22,921 bases of DNA, taken from the IMG/VR virus record IMGVR_UViG_3300035703_000417, positions 1 through 22,921 of that record. The stretch is one strand, 5' to 3'. Each line of letters begins with the position of its first letter. Position 1 is the stretch's first letter. This DNA comes from a virus. Both the position numbers and the translations under genes were made by a program. Positions 2,154-21,755 of this stretch are shown here, in pieces. Under the pieces are notes generated by a model. It saw nothing but the letters and a program-made list of their open reading frames with translations. It did not search any database and was not told the origin of the DNA.

Positions 2154-3794
2154 ATGCCTGGAGCACCAACTTTCATAACGTTTGCCGACAAGGATAAACT
2201 TGGATCGGCACCGCTCAATAAGTTTCGCGATATCGACGCGAACGAGATCAAGGCCGTGGTGAATGATCACTACGGTTGGCTTGTTACGCACAACACGCAG
2301 CTTACAGACCATGAGTCGAGAATCGTAGACCTCGAGACGATGAACGCCTCCGAGGTGATTTACGATGATACGGACACATCGCTTGGCTTCACTAATGTGC
2401 AGGGCGCAATTGAGGAGGTTGTGAATCGCGTCAATGGCAAGCAGGACGCTTCCGCAGGACTCTCTGATATTGCCGCTCTCTCTGCCGTCAACAATGATTT
2501 CCTGCAGTACAAATCAGGTGCGTGGTCCAACCGCACGATCGCTCAGGTTAAGACGGATCTTAACTACACCAAGTCAGATGTCGGGCTGAGCAATGTTCCG
2601 AACGTCGATACTTCAAACGCTTCAAACATCTCAGCCGGTACGCTTAATGATGCGCGACTCAGCGCGTCTGTTACCCGCGAAGGCAACACGTTCAATGGCG
2701 CTAATCAGCTCCTGAAGCTGGATGCCGGAGGGAAAGTTCCGCAGGCGAATCTTCCGGCGGTAGCAATCACCGACACGTTTGTTGTCGGTTCACAAGTTGC
2801 CATGCTCGCTCTCTCTGCGGAGACCGGAGATGTGGCAGTTCGTACCGACCTGAACAAGTCCTTCATTTTGCAGGGTACCGACCCGAGTGATATCGGAGAT
2901 TGGCAGGAGCTCCTATCACCTACGGCAGCAGTGAGCTCCGTGAACGGCTACACTGGTGTTGTGGTCCTCACAAAGTCCGATGTTGGACTTGGAAGCGTGG
3001 ATAACGTTCAGCAAATTCCGATGTCGTATCTCGACACGGATGCAACGATGGCCGCGAATTCAGATTCGAAGGTTCCATCTCAGAAGGCTGTGAAGTCCTT
3101 CTCAGCCAACTATCAAAAGGTTTCGGACGCAAGTGATTTCCGCGCACGATACGTGCGCATGATCGAATTCATTGCGGGTGTATCTGGCGAGCCAATAACC
3201 ACAAACCACTCTGGCGGAACTGGAGCATTAATTGAAAATGAGGCTGGACATATTGGGATATTTCAGCTGTCAACAGCATCATCGGCTACAGGTAGAGGAT
3301 CCCTCTTAGCGTCAATAAACCCCGCTATTCAGCCTTTTACGGCTGGTGATGGTGCTATCACGTTTGAATCTCAGATCAGAATTCCAACGCTTTCTGATGG
3401 CACTGACACGTATTCCATTAGGCTAGGTTTTCAAGACACGGCAACAGGTGGAGTATCAACTGATGGCGCGTACTTTGAATATCTCCAAACAACATCTGCA
3501 AACTGGAGGTTCGTAACCGCCAACAACTCGACAAGAACGACAACCGAAGGATCATCTCCGGTTGCTGTTGCCTCTGGTTCATGGATAACGTTGCGTGTTG
3601 ATATCAACGCGGACGCCACTGAAGCGAAGTTCTATGTGAACGACACCTTGATTGCTACGACCACAACAAACATTCCAGGATCAGGCCGTGCGTTTGGATA
3701 CGGAGTTCACATACTGAAGTCCGTAGGCACAGCAGCAAGAACCGTTGATATAGATTACATCTACGTCAACAAAACCCTAACCACTCCACGATAA
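2154..3794 (+). CDS. Fibre-like structural protein with C-terminal lectin-type domain
   Basis: This 546-residue protein is built like a phage fibre. Residues 1-65 are helical. A segment YDDTDTSLGFTNVQGAIEEV follows at 70-89. Two copies of a TKSDVGLxxVxNV motif lie at 139-150 and 273-284. The segment DTDATMAANSDSKVPSQKAV at 294-313 is common in tail fibres. Residues 330-546 look like a beta-sandwich of the ConA-like/LamG kind (for example WITLRVDINADATEAKFYVND at 477-497, written here only as a region). It lies between neck and sheath genes rather than with the tail fibres, so it may be a head or neck fibre. The DNA of the C-terminal domain (from about 3160) is more AT-rich than its neighbours and contains both TTA codons of the gene, which suggests domain exchange. 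Receptor or glycan binding is inferred. Confidence 0.65.
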   Translation: MPGAPTFITFADKDKLGSAPLNKFRDIDANEIKAVVNDHYGWLVTHNTQLTDHESRIVDLETMNASEVIYDDTDTSLGFTNVQGAIEEVVNRVNGKQDASAGLSDIAALSAVNNDFLQYKSGAWSNRTIAQVKTDLNYTKSDVGLSNVPNVDTSNASNISAGTLNDARLSASVTREGNTFNGANQLLKLDAGGKVPQANLPAVAITDTFVVGSQVAMLALSAETGDVAVRTDLNKSFILQGTDPSDIGDWQELLSPTAAVSSVNGYTGVVVLTKSDVGLGSVDNVQQIPMSYLDTDATMAANSDSKVPSQKAVKSFSANYQKVSDASDFRARYVRMIEFIAGVSGEPITTNHSGGTGALIENEAGHIGIFQLSTASSATGRGSLLASINPAIQPFTAGDGAITFESQIRIPTLSDGTDTYSIRLGFQDTATGGVSTDGAYFEYLQTTSANWRFVTANNSTRTTTEGSSPVAVASGSWITLRVDINADATEAKFYVNDTLIATTTTNIPGSGRAFGYGVHILKSVGTAARTVDIDYIYVNKTLTTPR

Positions 3795-3813
3795 CCAAAA
3801 TTCACCCGATATT

Positions 3814-17041: not shown

Positions 17042-17404
17042 ATGTCAACCGTCATAAAAGTAACAGCAGCGCAGGAGCGCAAGATCATCGCCAGAGAAGG
17101 TGATGATTTCAGTTTAGTGATGGCCGTGAAAAACCCGGACACCACAGATTTCGACTTCACCGACTACACCGCAAAGATGCAGGTGAAATCGAGAGAGGTG
17201 GAAACCGATACGGCTGTTTTGTCTTTTGAAACGGGAACAGACATCGCTCTGACTTCAGGGCAAATCGCTATAAGCAAACCAGCATCTGAGATGCTCGGAA
17301 AGTCTGGCAAATATTTTTACGACCTGAAGATAACTGATCCGCAAGGCGGAGTTTCCACGTGGTTGTATGGTTCGTTTGAGCTTCTTCCAACTATCACCGT
17401 ATGA
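17042..17404 (+). CDS. Small beta-rich fibre-cluster protein, BppU-like N-domain possible
   Basis: The 120-residue product starts at ATG 17042; a TTG six bases earlier is less likely. It has a beta-sandwich look: GDDFSLVMAVKNPDTTDFDF (20-39), YTAKMQVKSRE, TSGQIAISKPASEM and GKYFYDLKITDPQGGVSTWL ending in a GSFELLPTITV strand. This pattern, with an edge strand for a polymer and a final G.F.L...IT, resembles the N-domain of baseplate upper proteins and other fibre-base Ig-like domains. It overlaps the collagen-like gene by four bases (ATGA), so it probably provides the base of that fibre. AAGTTTTG three bases before the ATG resembles a weak -7 box. Function is inferred from fold pattern and position. 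Confidence 0.5.
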   Translation: MSTVIKVTAAQERKIIAREGDDFSLVMAVKNPDTTDFDFTDYTAKMQVKSREVETDTAVLSFETGTDIALTSGQIAISKPASEMLGKSGKYFYDLKITDPQGGVSTWLYGSFELLPTITV

Positions 17405-18225
17405 CCAACGTAACGCTCATCATACAAACACCATCGATTCCGGTTATTGAGGTTCAAGCACCACAAACACCGACGATCGAAGTTACGCCACAGGGACCAA
17501 TGGGCTTGTCTGCCTATCAGGTTGCCGTGGCGAATGGCTTTGTTGGAACTCAGTCCGATTGGCTTCTTTCTTTGAAGGGTGATCCAGGAGCGGACGGAGC
17601 CGATGGTGTTGATGGTCAGGACGGAGCAGATGGCCTTTCCGCCTATCAGATTGCGGTGAACAACGGGTTTGTTGGCACTGAGTCTCAATGGCTCCTTTCG
17701 TTGAATGGAGCGGACGGTGCGGATGGTCAGGATGGAGCGGACGGTTCAGACGGCGCAGCCGGTCTTTCTGCATACCAGATCGCAGTGAACAATGGCTTTG
17801 TTGGCACTGAGTCTCAATGGCTCCTTTCGTTGAACGGAGCTCCTGGAGCAGACGGTCAGGACGGAGCGGATGGCTCAGACGGCGCAGCCGGTCTTTCTGC
17901 ATATCAGATCGCGCTGAACAACGGTTTTGTTGGTACGGAGTCTCAATGGCTTCTCAGCCTCAAAGGTGATCCAGGAGCGGATGGCGCTGACGGAGCAGAC
18001 GGCGCTGACGGAGCAGACGGCGCAGATGGCGCAGCCGGTCTTTCCGCTTATCAGATTGCGGTGAACAACGGTTTCGTTGGCACCGAGTCTCAATGGCTTC
18101 TCAGCCTCAAAGGTGATCCGGGTGATACTGGTCCTCCAGGAGCTGATGGAGCAGACGGAGCTGATGGCGCTGATGGCGTTGTTGACTACGGAATTGCAAT
18201 TACAAACGCAATCATATTCGGATGA
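17401..18225 (+). CDS. Collagen-like fibre protein with five 43-residue repeats
   Basis: The 274-residue protein begins with a proline/valine-rich 35-residue segment (PSIPVIEVQAPQTPTIEVTP). Five copies of a unit of the form LSAYQxAxxNGFVGTxSxW plus LLSL start at residues 36, 79, 122, 165 and 213. Between and after them lie Gly-X-Y tracts with Pro, Asp and Ala (for example GDPGADGADGVDGQDGADG at 60-78), four after the first four units and a longer one at about 236-259 that begins GDPGDTGPPG. Gly-X-Y tracts form trimeric collagen triple helices, so this is likely a rigid trimeric fibre shaft. A short terminal GVVDYGIAITNAIIFG region may connect to the next protein, whose gene overlaps by four bases. 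The repeat copies differ at a few codons, showing old duplication. Tail fibre role is strongly suggested. Confidence 0.8.
   Translation: MTNVTLIIQTPSIPVIEVQAPQTPTIEVTPQGPMGLSAYQVAVANGFVGTQSDWLLSLKGDPGADGADGVDGQDGADGLSAYQIAVNNGFVGTESQWLLSLNGADGADGQDGADGSDGAAGLSAYQIAVNNGFVGTESQWLLSLNGAPGADGQDGADGSDGAAGLSAYQIALNNGFVGTESQWLLSLKGDPGADGADGADGADGADGADGAAGLSAYQIAVNNGFVGTESQWLLSLKGDPGDTGPPGADGADGADGADGVVDYGIAITNAIIFG
17506..18177 (+). repeat. 129-base tandem protein-coding repeat (five units)
   Basis: The units begin at 17506, 17635, 17764, 17893 and 18037; the first four are spaced 129 bases (43 codons) and the last 144 bases apart. Each has a globular segment and a Gly-X-Y tract. Such a repeat can gain or lose units by recombination and so vary fibre length. 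Confidence 0.85.
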
Positions 18226-20058: not shown

Positions 20059-21156
20059 TTACAGACCCATTGCCTTGTTCACCCGGTCAACGTCTGCAGG
20101 TTTCACCGAGTGGATGTATCTGGCCGTGGTGGATAGCTGCCGATGGCCGAGAAGATCGGCAATCTCGCGCTGCGACATTCCGGCTTTGTGCGCGAACGAT
20201 CCAACCGTGTGCCTGATGGTGTGGAAATTCGCTCCGCGCACTCCCGCCTTGCGGCACACCCTGCGCCATGCGTGCGCAGCGTATGCCGCGCCTTTATGCA
20301 CCCATATTCCCGGACACAGGAATTCCCGCTTGTGAACGTCTTGCAGCAGCTCGAGAGCTGCGTTCGGCAATCGCACCGACCTTTGCCCTGTCTTGCTATC
20401 GGGAAGCACCAGAAGGCCTCGCTCGAGGTCGACCCATTCCGAACGCGCTTTGCCGATTTCGGAGAAGCGGCAACCGGTGAGCATGAGCAAGCGGACCAGG
20501 CGAGCAAAGTGCGGGTGCTCATCCTTCAGGTGCGGAATGATTCGGGAGATTTCCGCCTCAGTCAGGATCCGTTCACGCGTGCGCTCAGGGTATTTTTTGA
20601 TGCGTCTAGCTGGATTATATCCCGCTTCCAGTACTTCCCATTCCGAAGCGAGATTGAACATCTTAGAGAGCAGCGCAACGGCTCTATTGGCTGACGTGGG
20701 AACATTGCACATGGCCACATGCAAGGCGACCACATCGGCACGCGTCACGCTTCTGATGGGTTTGCTCCCGATTTTTGGACAAATATAGTCCAACCACAGG
20801 CCTTGGTCGCGTTCGATGGAGCTCGGTTTCTTGTATGGCTTGGCGTGCCTGAGCAGGTACATATCCCATAGTTGAGCCACTGTGAGCGTTCCCCTGCGGC
20901 CTTGCAGATCCTCTCCCTCCCGGACGCGAGAGATGAACTTTCGCGCAAGTGCTCGCGCCTGGTCGGGTGCCATATCACACACCCGCGCGATCGTGCGCTT
21001 TCCGTGCTGGCCTTCGTTGTTTCGGTACCGGAGAATGTAGGTCTTCCGTCCGGAGGTATTGCAGCGAACTCCGAAGCCTGGAAGCTCGCTATCCCAGATG
21101 TATTGATCCTTACCGTTGGCTGTGATGGATTCGATCGCTGTTTTCGTGAGTTTCAT
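20059..21156 (-). CDS. int: Tyrosine recombinase (phage integrase)
   Basis: The 365-residue protein has an N-terminal arm-binding domain (about 1-85, with LPGFGVRCNTSGRKTYILRY at 25-44), a SAM-like core-binding domain (about 90-185, LTVAQLWDMYLLRHAKPYKK), and a catalytic domain (about 195-365). All active-site residues are visible: R230 (TGCRFSEIG), K255 (SKTGQ), H312 and R315 (FHTIRH), H338 (LLGHRQ) and the nucleophile Y347 (ARYIHS). It integrates and excises the phage at att sites. It is transcribed towards the fibre operon and shares its terminator. The start ATG at 21156 faces a region with candidate arm sites. A full-length, apparently active enzyme. Confidence 0.95.
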   Translation of the reverse strand: MKLTKTAIESITANGKDQYIWDSELPGFGVRCNTSGRKTYILRYRNNEGQHGKRTIARVCDMAPDQARALARKFISRVREGEDLQGRRGTLTVAQLWDMYLLRHAKPYKKPSSIERDQGLWLDYICPKIGSKPIRSVTRADVVALHVAMCNVPTSANRAVALLSKMFNLASEWEVLEAGYNPARRIKKYPERTRERILTEAEISRIIPHLKDEHPHFARLVRLLMLTGCRFSEIGKARSEWVDLERGLLVLPDSKTGQRSVRLPNAALELLQDVHKREFLCPGIWVHKGAAYAAHAWRRVCRKAGVRGANFHTIRHTVGSFAHKAGMSQREIADLLGHRQLSTTARYIHSVKPADVDRVNKAMGL

Positions 21157-21167
21157 GGCAGCTCCGT

Positions 21168-21187
21168 GGGACGCAGGTTGGACGCAG
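21168..21187 (+). repeat. Tandem arm-type repeat pair, integrase side
   Basis: GGGACGCAG (21168-21176) and TGGACGCAG (21179-21187) lie 11 bases apart in the same orientation, just upstream of the integrase start. They match the pair at 21374-21393. Confidence 0.6.
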
Positions 21188-21290: not shown

Positions 21291-21330
21291 TGGATGATGC
21301 TCGCACTTAAAATGCCGTGCAAGTGTGATT

Positions 21331-21373: not shown

Positions 21374-21393
21374 TGGACGCAGGATGGACGCGG
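21374..21393 (+). repeat. Tandem arm-type repeat pair, tRNA side
   Basis: TGGACGCAG (21374-21382) and TGGACGCGG (21385-21393) are 11 bases apart, as in the pair at 21168-21187. The second copy overlaps the first four bases of the tRNA. Confidence 0.55.
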
Positions 21394-21465
21394 ACGTAGC
21401 CCAACGGTAGAGGCAAGCGACTTAAAATCGCTCGAGTGAGGGTTCGATTCCCTCCGTCCGCACCA
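21390..21465 (+). tRNA. tRNA with anticodon UAA (Leu codon UUA), short variable loop
   Basis: A complete 76-base cloverleaf is visible. The acceptor stem GCGGACG (21390-21396) pairs perfectly with CGTCCGC (21455-21461); A is the discriminator and CCA is encoded (21463-21465). The D arm has GCC/GGC and a GG-containing loop. The anticodon stem AGCGA/TCGCT holds the loop CTTAAAA (21421-21427), so the anticodon is TAA, reading UUA. The T arm is GAGGG/CCCTC with loop TTCGATT. The variable loop is only five bases (CGAGT), while bacterial leucine tRNAs normally have a long variable arm. The charging amino acid is therefore uncertain despite the leucine anticodon. A terminator follows six bases later. 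Confidence 0.9.
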
Positions 21466-21470
21466 AAAAG

Positions 21471-21497
21471 AAACCCCGGAGATCCGCTCCGGGGTTT
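21471..21497. terminator. Terminator between tRNA and HTH gene, likely bidirectional
   Basis: AAACCCCGGAG (21471-21481) pairs with CTCCGGGGTTT (21487-21497) over 11 bp round a five-base loop. It lies downstream of the tRNA on the plus strand and directly after the minus-strand HTH gene, so it can serve both. Confidence 0.82.
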
Positions 21498-21500
21498 AGA

Positions 21501-21755
21501 TCAGACCATCGTGATTAGGTTTGATACTAGCGAGAACAGTGCAAGTTCTTTCACGTATTGGTGTGTGCCGGTTACTGTTCGTTTCTTCTCCCATTCAAGT
21601 ATATCGGCAAGCCGATACAGTATCCGTCCACCAATTTTTGTGTATGGAGGAGATACGCCAAGGCTCCTCCAGTTGGCGAGAGTCCTCGTTGTGATTCTCC
21701 CCTGGTACCGCTCTACCAGCTCGGCGGGAGTGATGTACTCTTTGTGCACGGCCAA
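21501..21755 (-). CDS. Small HTH protein (HTH_17/AlpA-like), possible excisionase
   Basis: The 84-residue product carries a MerR-like winged-helix of the HTH_17 excisionase group: YITPAELVERYQGRITTRTL then ANWRSLGVSPPYTKIGGRIL and YRLADILEWEKKRT. The pattern TP.ELAERY...T..TL..WR..G..P.Y.KIGGR..Y is typical of AlpA/Xis-like DNA-bending proteins. The start is TTG (21755) or GTG (21749); no in-frame ATG is near. It is on the integrase strand and next to the attP region, which suits a recombination directionality factor; a transcription regulator is the alternative. The C-terminal 20 residues (VKELALFSLVSNLITMV) are hydrophobic and unusual for the family. Confidence 0.75.
   Translation of the reverse strand: MAVHKEYITPAELVERYQGRITTRTLANWRSLGVSPPYTKIGGRILYRLADILEWEKKRTVTGTHQYVKELALFSLVSNLITMV

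Follow-up and report, generated by a model that had tools for sequence, protein, structure and literature searches.

Structure of the tRNA gene

How does a phage tRNA with a leucine anticodon come to lack the long variable arm that marks bacterial tRNA-Leu as class II, which amino acid does it carry, and what does the phage gain by keeping it? The gene in question is the only tRNA gene that ARAGORN recovers from the entire window (the whole stretch of DNA analyzed here, 22,921 nucleotides, from a source record that is a linear fragment of 22.9 kb). It is reported as a tRNA-Leu(taa) of 76 nt on the plus strand. The Rfam model RF00005 matches it with 66.6 bits, the cut-off being 29 (E = 9.9 × 10−13), so the match is not a chance one. 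Its coordinates are as follows.

21390 to 21465, plus strand: tRNA-Leu(UAA) with a 5-nt variable loop and an encoded CCA (ARAGORN; Rfam; fold z score, −2.8)
21421 to 21427, plus strand: anticodon loop CTTAAAA of this tRNA (read directly)

A hand parse pairs the acceptor stem (GCGGACG/CGTCCGC) at 7 of 7 positions, the anticodon stem (AGCGA/TCGCT) at 5 of 5, and the T stem (GAGGG/CCCTC) at 5 of 5, and it reads the 5-nt variable loop as CGAGT, the discriminator as A73, and the CCA as part of the gene. A first-pass annotation of this DNA, made by eye, had described a UAA anticodon with a five-base variable loop, and ARAGORN, Rfam, and the hand parse all bear it out; the encoded CCA and the loop CTTAAAA that it gave are likewise confirmed by the hand parse. 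Its statement that all four arms pair perfectly holds for the acceptor, anticodon, and T stems but not for the D stem, in which Rfam, the centroid fold, and the hand parse give three pairs (10-25, 11-24, and 12-23) and a C13·A22 mismatch. Position 13-22 is unpaired in every Leu tRNA that we collected, short-arm and long-arm alike. A promoter scan found no sigma-70-like consensus promoter upstream of the gene.

A branch of leucine tRNAs with short variable arms

Searches with a family pattern in which the short variable loop is fixed recovered at least 120 stretches in viral contigs and at least 117 in bacterial genomes, a few of the latter not being tRNAs, which corresponds to about 110 bacterial loci or more. 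Among the tRNAs that ARAGORN calls in the loci collected, a signature consisting of C13·A22, A14, and GGUAGAG is found in 197 distinct tRNAs, all with leucine anticodons, and in no tRNA with any other anticodon. All five leucine anticodons are represented: UAA in 178, these copies having been picked by a pattern that itself contains GGTAGA, and CAA (9), UAG (6), GAG (2), and CAG (2) in a further 19 that were not preselected in this way. The window tRNA, with its C13·A22 mismatch, A14, GGUAGAG D arm, leucine anticodon, and 5-nt variable loop, is by its sequence a member of this large short-variable-arm branch of tRNA-Leu, which spans phages and bacteria. The textbook rule that bacterial tRNA-Leu is class II thus does not hold for a group of tRNAs that is widespread in phages and chromosomes.

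The viral members mostly stand in groups with other tRNA genes, and some phage arrays (e.g., L004 and L103) carry short-arm tRNA-Leu with CAA, UAA, and UAG anticodons side by side. The closest sequences to the window tRNA among the matches listed are chromosomal copies from Verrucomicrobiota (66 to 67 matching bases), which lie amid housekeeping-type genes with no integrase adjoining. Its anticodon loop, CTTAAAA, is the common one in chromosomal Leu(UAA) genes.

Two observations concern the spread of the family. Contigs of Allomuricauda and other Bacteroidota (L134, L201, L225, and L231) hold arrays of 10 to 11 tRNAs in which UAA and UAG forms of short-arm tRNA-Leu are present; one of the genomes (that of L225) has a long-arm Leu(UAA) too, and these arrays therefore look like mobile tRNA arrays. 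Two genomes (G009, of locus L146, and G002, of locus L125) encode a short-arm tRNA-Leu GAG besides the short-arm UAA gene, so that tRNAs with anticodons other than UAA may have lost the long arm as well.

Short-loop leucine tRNAs have precedents. A tRNA-Leu(UAG) with a short variable loop has been published from a horizontally acquired tRNA cluster of Mycobacterium (PMC6582537). It resembles the window tRNA in its leucine anticodon, its short loop, and a suggested mobile origin but differs in the anticodon itself, in lying within a tRNA cluster, and in occurring beside a normal long-loop isoacceptor. In animal mitochondria, tRNA-Leu(UUR) also has a short variable loop and is leucylated through A73/A14 (PMC9976931), but it is organellar, with another synthetase and another origin.

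Leucine identity and the meaning of UUA

The identity elements of Escherichia coli LeuRS are A73, A15-U48, G18G19, and A20a and do not include the long arm (reviewed in PMC9976931). When parsed by hand against the elements in that review, the window tRNA has A73 together with U8:A14, A15-U48, G18G19, and A20a. In the family at large, A14 is present in all 204 distinct short-arm Leu tRNAs and A73 in 200 of these 204, with the 15-48 pair being A-U in 147 and G-C in 46. Charging of the window tRNA by an ordinary LeuRS through its core and A73 is a well-supported prediction, and from the identity elements we infer that the tRNA is leucylated. The first-pass annotation had offered relaxed charging by LeuRS as one option; the charging itself is well supported by these elements, but the relaxation need not be invoked, because the E. 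coli identity set lies outside the long arm and every element of it is present. The gene product should then read UUA and probably, by wobble, UUG. The distance from G18 to the anticodon was dropped as a leucine marker after the same distance was found in Arg, Met, Asp, and Glu tRNAs.

The chromosomal copies bear on what UUA means where this form occurs. With a loose pattern for any Leu(UAA), only 1 of 11 genomes with the short form yielded a long-arm copy. In 246 Actinomycetota genomes, the short form was found in 33, the long form in about 99, and both in none, against an expectation of 13.3 (P = 8 × 10−9); in 95 genomes from the phylum of G022, the corresponding counts were 11, 60, and 0, against 6.9 expected (P = 5 × 10−6), both P values ignoring the relatedness of the genomes and the counts being those left after the few non-tRNA pattern matches were removed by eye. 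Many genomes show neither form because the patterns miss divergent tRNAs. Among Verrucomicrobiota, 170 of 194 genomes matched a Leu(UAA) pattern, nearly all with the long arm among the matches listed. The other leucine isoacceptors of short-arm genomes are mostly of the long-arm type. The absence of any overlap between the two forms makes the short form appear to be the sole UUA reader in those genomes, and on this pattern of occurrence some members of Actinomycetota and of other phyla appear to have no other UUA tRNA. Of 362 TTA codons in genes close to a short-arm tRNA, 268 align with a position that is predominantly leucine in homologues, and the meaning of UUA is therefore unchanged. The first-pass annotation had held that host leucine tRNAs of the same short-loop type would refute its reading; leucine tRNAs of that type are indeed found in the chromosomes of the bacteria sampled. 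We found no paper among the open-access literature that describes a short-arm tRNA-Leu(UAA) as the sole chromosomal UUA tRNA.

The integrase region and a candidate attP

The most informative context of the tRNA gene, which was absent from the first-pass annotation, is an integrase gene with arm-type repeats and a 9-bp copy of the anticodon loop. These features, in the order int, arm repeats, core, arm repeats, tRNA, and HTH gene, are as follows.

20059 to 21156, minus strand: tyrosine integrase with an arm DNA-binding domain, 365 aa (PF00589, E = 3.9 × 10−19; PF13356, E = 8.5 × 10−11)
21169 to 21185, minus strand: integrase-proximal pair of arm-type repeats, GGACGC at 21169 and 21180, 11-bp spacing (repeat analysis)
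21305 to 21313, plus strand: candidate attP core ACTTAAAAT, 9 bp (repeat family D7)
21375 to 21391, minus strand: distal pair of arm-type repeats, GGACGC at 21375 and 21386, 11-bp spacing (repeat analysis), its final 2 bases overlapping the start of the tRNA
21471 to 21497, minus strand: terminator-like perfect inverted repeat of 11 bp, located between the tRNA and HTH genes
21501 to 21755, minus strand: small HTH_17 protein, excisionase-like by position (PF12728, E = 2.6 × 10−5, just under Pfam's cut-off)

The candidate core, ACTTAAAAT, is identical to positions 21420 to 21428 of the tRNA, that is, to the anticodon loop CTTAAAA and one base on either side, and it ends 77 bases before the tRNA starts. 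It lies 122 to 123 nt from the integrase-proximal arm repeats, and the loop of the full tRNA lies at 238 nt. In 20,000 shuffles of the 233-bp interval, the 9-mer arose anywhere in 11 and at the relevant spacing in none. Downstream of the core, only 16 of 45 bases match the window tRNA from its loop onward, with no T arm. The core is therefore not continued as a tRNA 3′ half, which indicates an attP without rebuilding of a tRNA. The inverted repeat at 21471 to 21497 was considered as a terminator for the tRNA and dropped, since the terminator scan gives it on the minus strand only. There is also a 9-bp inverted match between the start of the integrase gene (TACCGTTGG, 21111 to 21119) and the D loop of the tRNA (CCAACGGTA, 21401 to 21409), probably due to chance.

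Relatives of the integrase region

A single-sequence search of viral contigs recovered no close relatives of the window integrase, but a search seeded with an alignment of this protein and the integrase of Aeromonas phage ST4 succeeded. In seven of the relatives (L272, L277, and L283 to L287), a tRNA 3′ half is present from the anticodon loop onward, with the loop center 122 to 146 nt from the proximal arm repeats; this is the usual layout in which integration rebuilds the host tRNA. Pairs of arm repeats with 11-bp spacing also occur in ST4 and in two of these relatives (L272 and L277).

The layout of ST4 (L239; accession no. OR261032) was predicted before its sequence was examined and was then found as predicted. 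Its integrase is 43% identical to that of the window, and as in the window, there are a full tRNA upstream, a 9-mer copy of the anticodon loop, and paired arm repeats. The full tRNA-Lys(UUU) is at 3595 to 3669 and the 9-bp loop copy at 3799 to 3807, the copy being 136 nt and the loop of the full tRNA 303 nt from the paired arm repeats. It differs from the window in the identity of the tRNA, and the OR261032 record names no attachment site there. This arrangement makes ST4, the host of which is cultured, a second candidate for tRNA-dependent lysogeny (see below). Its tRNA-Lys had no match in E. coli genomes. In its eight closest viral relatives (L272 to L279), the window integrase has no counterpart with a full tRNA nearby, and the plan of integrase, tRNA, and core thus rests on two phages.

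Across 335 genomes from the class of G013, which has one of the most similar tRNAs, the window integrase had no match at E ≤ 1 × 10−40. Of the other 237 short-arm loci, 4 have an integrase no more than 3 kb away, and none has a core copy.

A proposed role in tRNA-dependent lysogeny and the alternatives

tRNA-dependent lysogeny has been published for the actinobacteriophages Fionnbharth, Mollymur, and Gaia (PMC10865867): a core of 8 to 17 bp lies inside a host tRNA gene, which is not reconstructed upon integration, and a like tRNA encoded by the phage keeps the lysogens alive. Related observations exist for Sinorhizobium prophages (PMC11476347). The window shares with the PMC10865867 phages a tyrosine integrase with an arm-binding domain, flanking arm-type repeats, a short candidate core that matches the anticodon arm of its own tRNA (9 bp here), an attP that lacks a tRNA 3′ half, and a phage-encoded tRNA that is cognate with its core. 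It differs in lying outside that set, with genes that include a contractile-tail sheath (hence myovirus-type), and in that disruption of the host gene is a prediction here; also, the tRNA-Leu(CAA) of Gaia has 83 nt, unlike the short-variable-loop Leu(UAA) of the window.

From the tRNA, its identity elements and family, the integrase, the repeats, the core copy, and its spacing, all seen in silico, we consider it likely that the gene encodes a functional, LeuRS-charged, short-arm UUA tRNA that serves tRNA-dependent lysogeny in a temperate phage. Recombination by the integrase would take place between the 9-bp core at 21305 to 21313 and the anticodon loop of a host tRNA-Leu(UAA) gene, integration would break that gene, and the short-arm tRNA-Leu(UAA) of the phage would replace the disrupted host tRNA. 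We infer the integration site, the disruption, and the complementation from this arrangement, and the position of the tRNA gene beside the integrase suggests such a replacement for a host gene that the phage itself breaks.

Alternatively, the tRNA could boost UUA/UUG decoding in lytic growth, adjoining the integrase by coincidence. A translational role is plausible for the majority of viral family members, grouped as they are with other tRNA genes, but here TTA accounts for 13 of 515 leucine codons (2.5%) in the phage genes counted and TTG for 11%, the scarcity of TTA making codon supply a poor reason for retaining the gene. Given also that it is the sole tRNA of the window and sits between arm-type repeats and an HTH gene, the core copy being correctly spaced, we regard this explanation as unlikely. 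Were the tRNA instead a passenger, it would itself hold the crossover site and have been captured along with it, its product being irrelevant. tRNA genes are common attB sites, and in three bacterial loci (L214, L204, and L209), a short-arm tRNA-Leu(UAA) gene has a tyrosine integrase 39 to 137 bp away and may itself be an attachment site. However, the tRNA loop of the window lies farther from the proximal arm repeats than the range seen in the relatives, and the tRNA is entire and well paired, whereas the reconstructing relatives have the 3′ half only; this makes a mere passenger quite improbable.

That phage tRNAs may counter host tRNA-degrading defenses has been proposed (PMC10865867), and the gene could in principle supply a decoy or a nuclease-resistant substitute against a host anticodon nuclease acting on tRNA-Leu. 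A loop as common in chromosomal Leu(UAA) genes as CTTAAAA is not one altered against cleavage, and we hold this to be very unlikely. Recoding of UUA through charging with another amino acid, which the first-pass annotation had also raised, has in its favor the unusual shape of the tRNA only. It is not borne out by the presence of every leucine identity element, by the confinement of the family signature to leucine anticodons, or by the alignment of UUA with leucine in the many chromosomes where UUA seems to be read by a short-arm Leu(UAA) alone, and we consider it almost certainly wrong.

Our search of the open-access literature found no paper on a tRNA-dependent lysogeny system with a short-arm tRNA-Leu(UAA). 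The proposed replacement of a broken host tRNA-Leu(UAA) by the phage copy offers a testable case in a phage that is not among the published actinobacteriophages, and ST4 is a second candidate. A broader idea, which we rate as rather unlikely, is that lysogeny serves as an exchange route for essential tRNA genes; if true, it would account for the mutual exclusion of the short and long forms among bacterial genomes.

Elsewhere in the window, the tail-gene region encodes (17401 to 18225) a collagen-like (GADGADG) repeat protein with repeated LSAYQIAVNNGFVGTESQWLLSL units.
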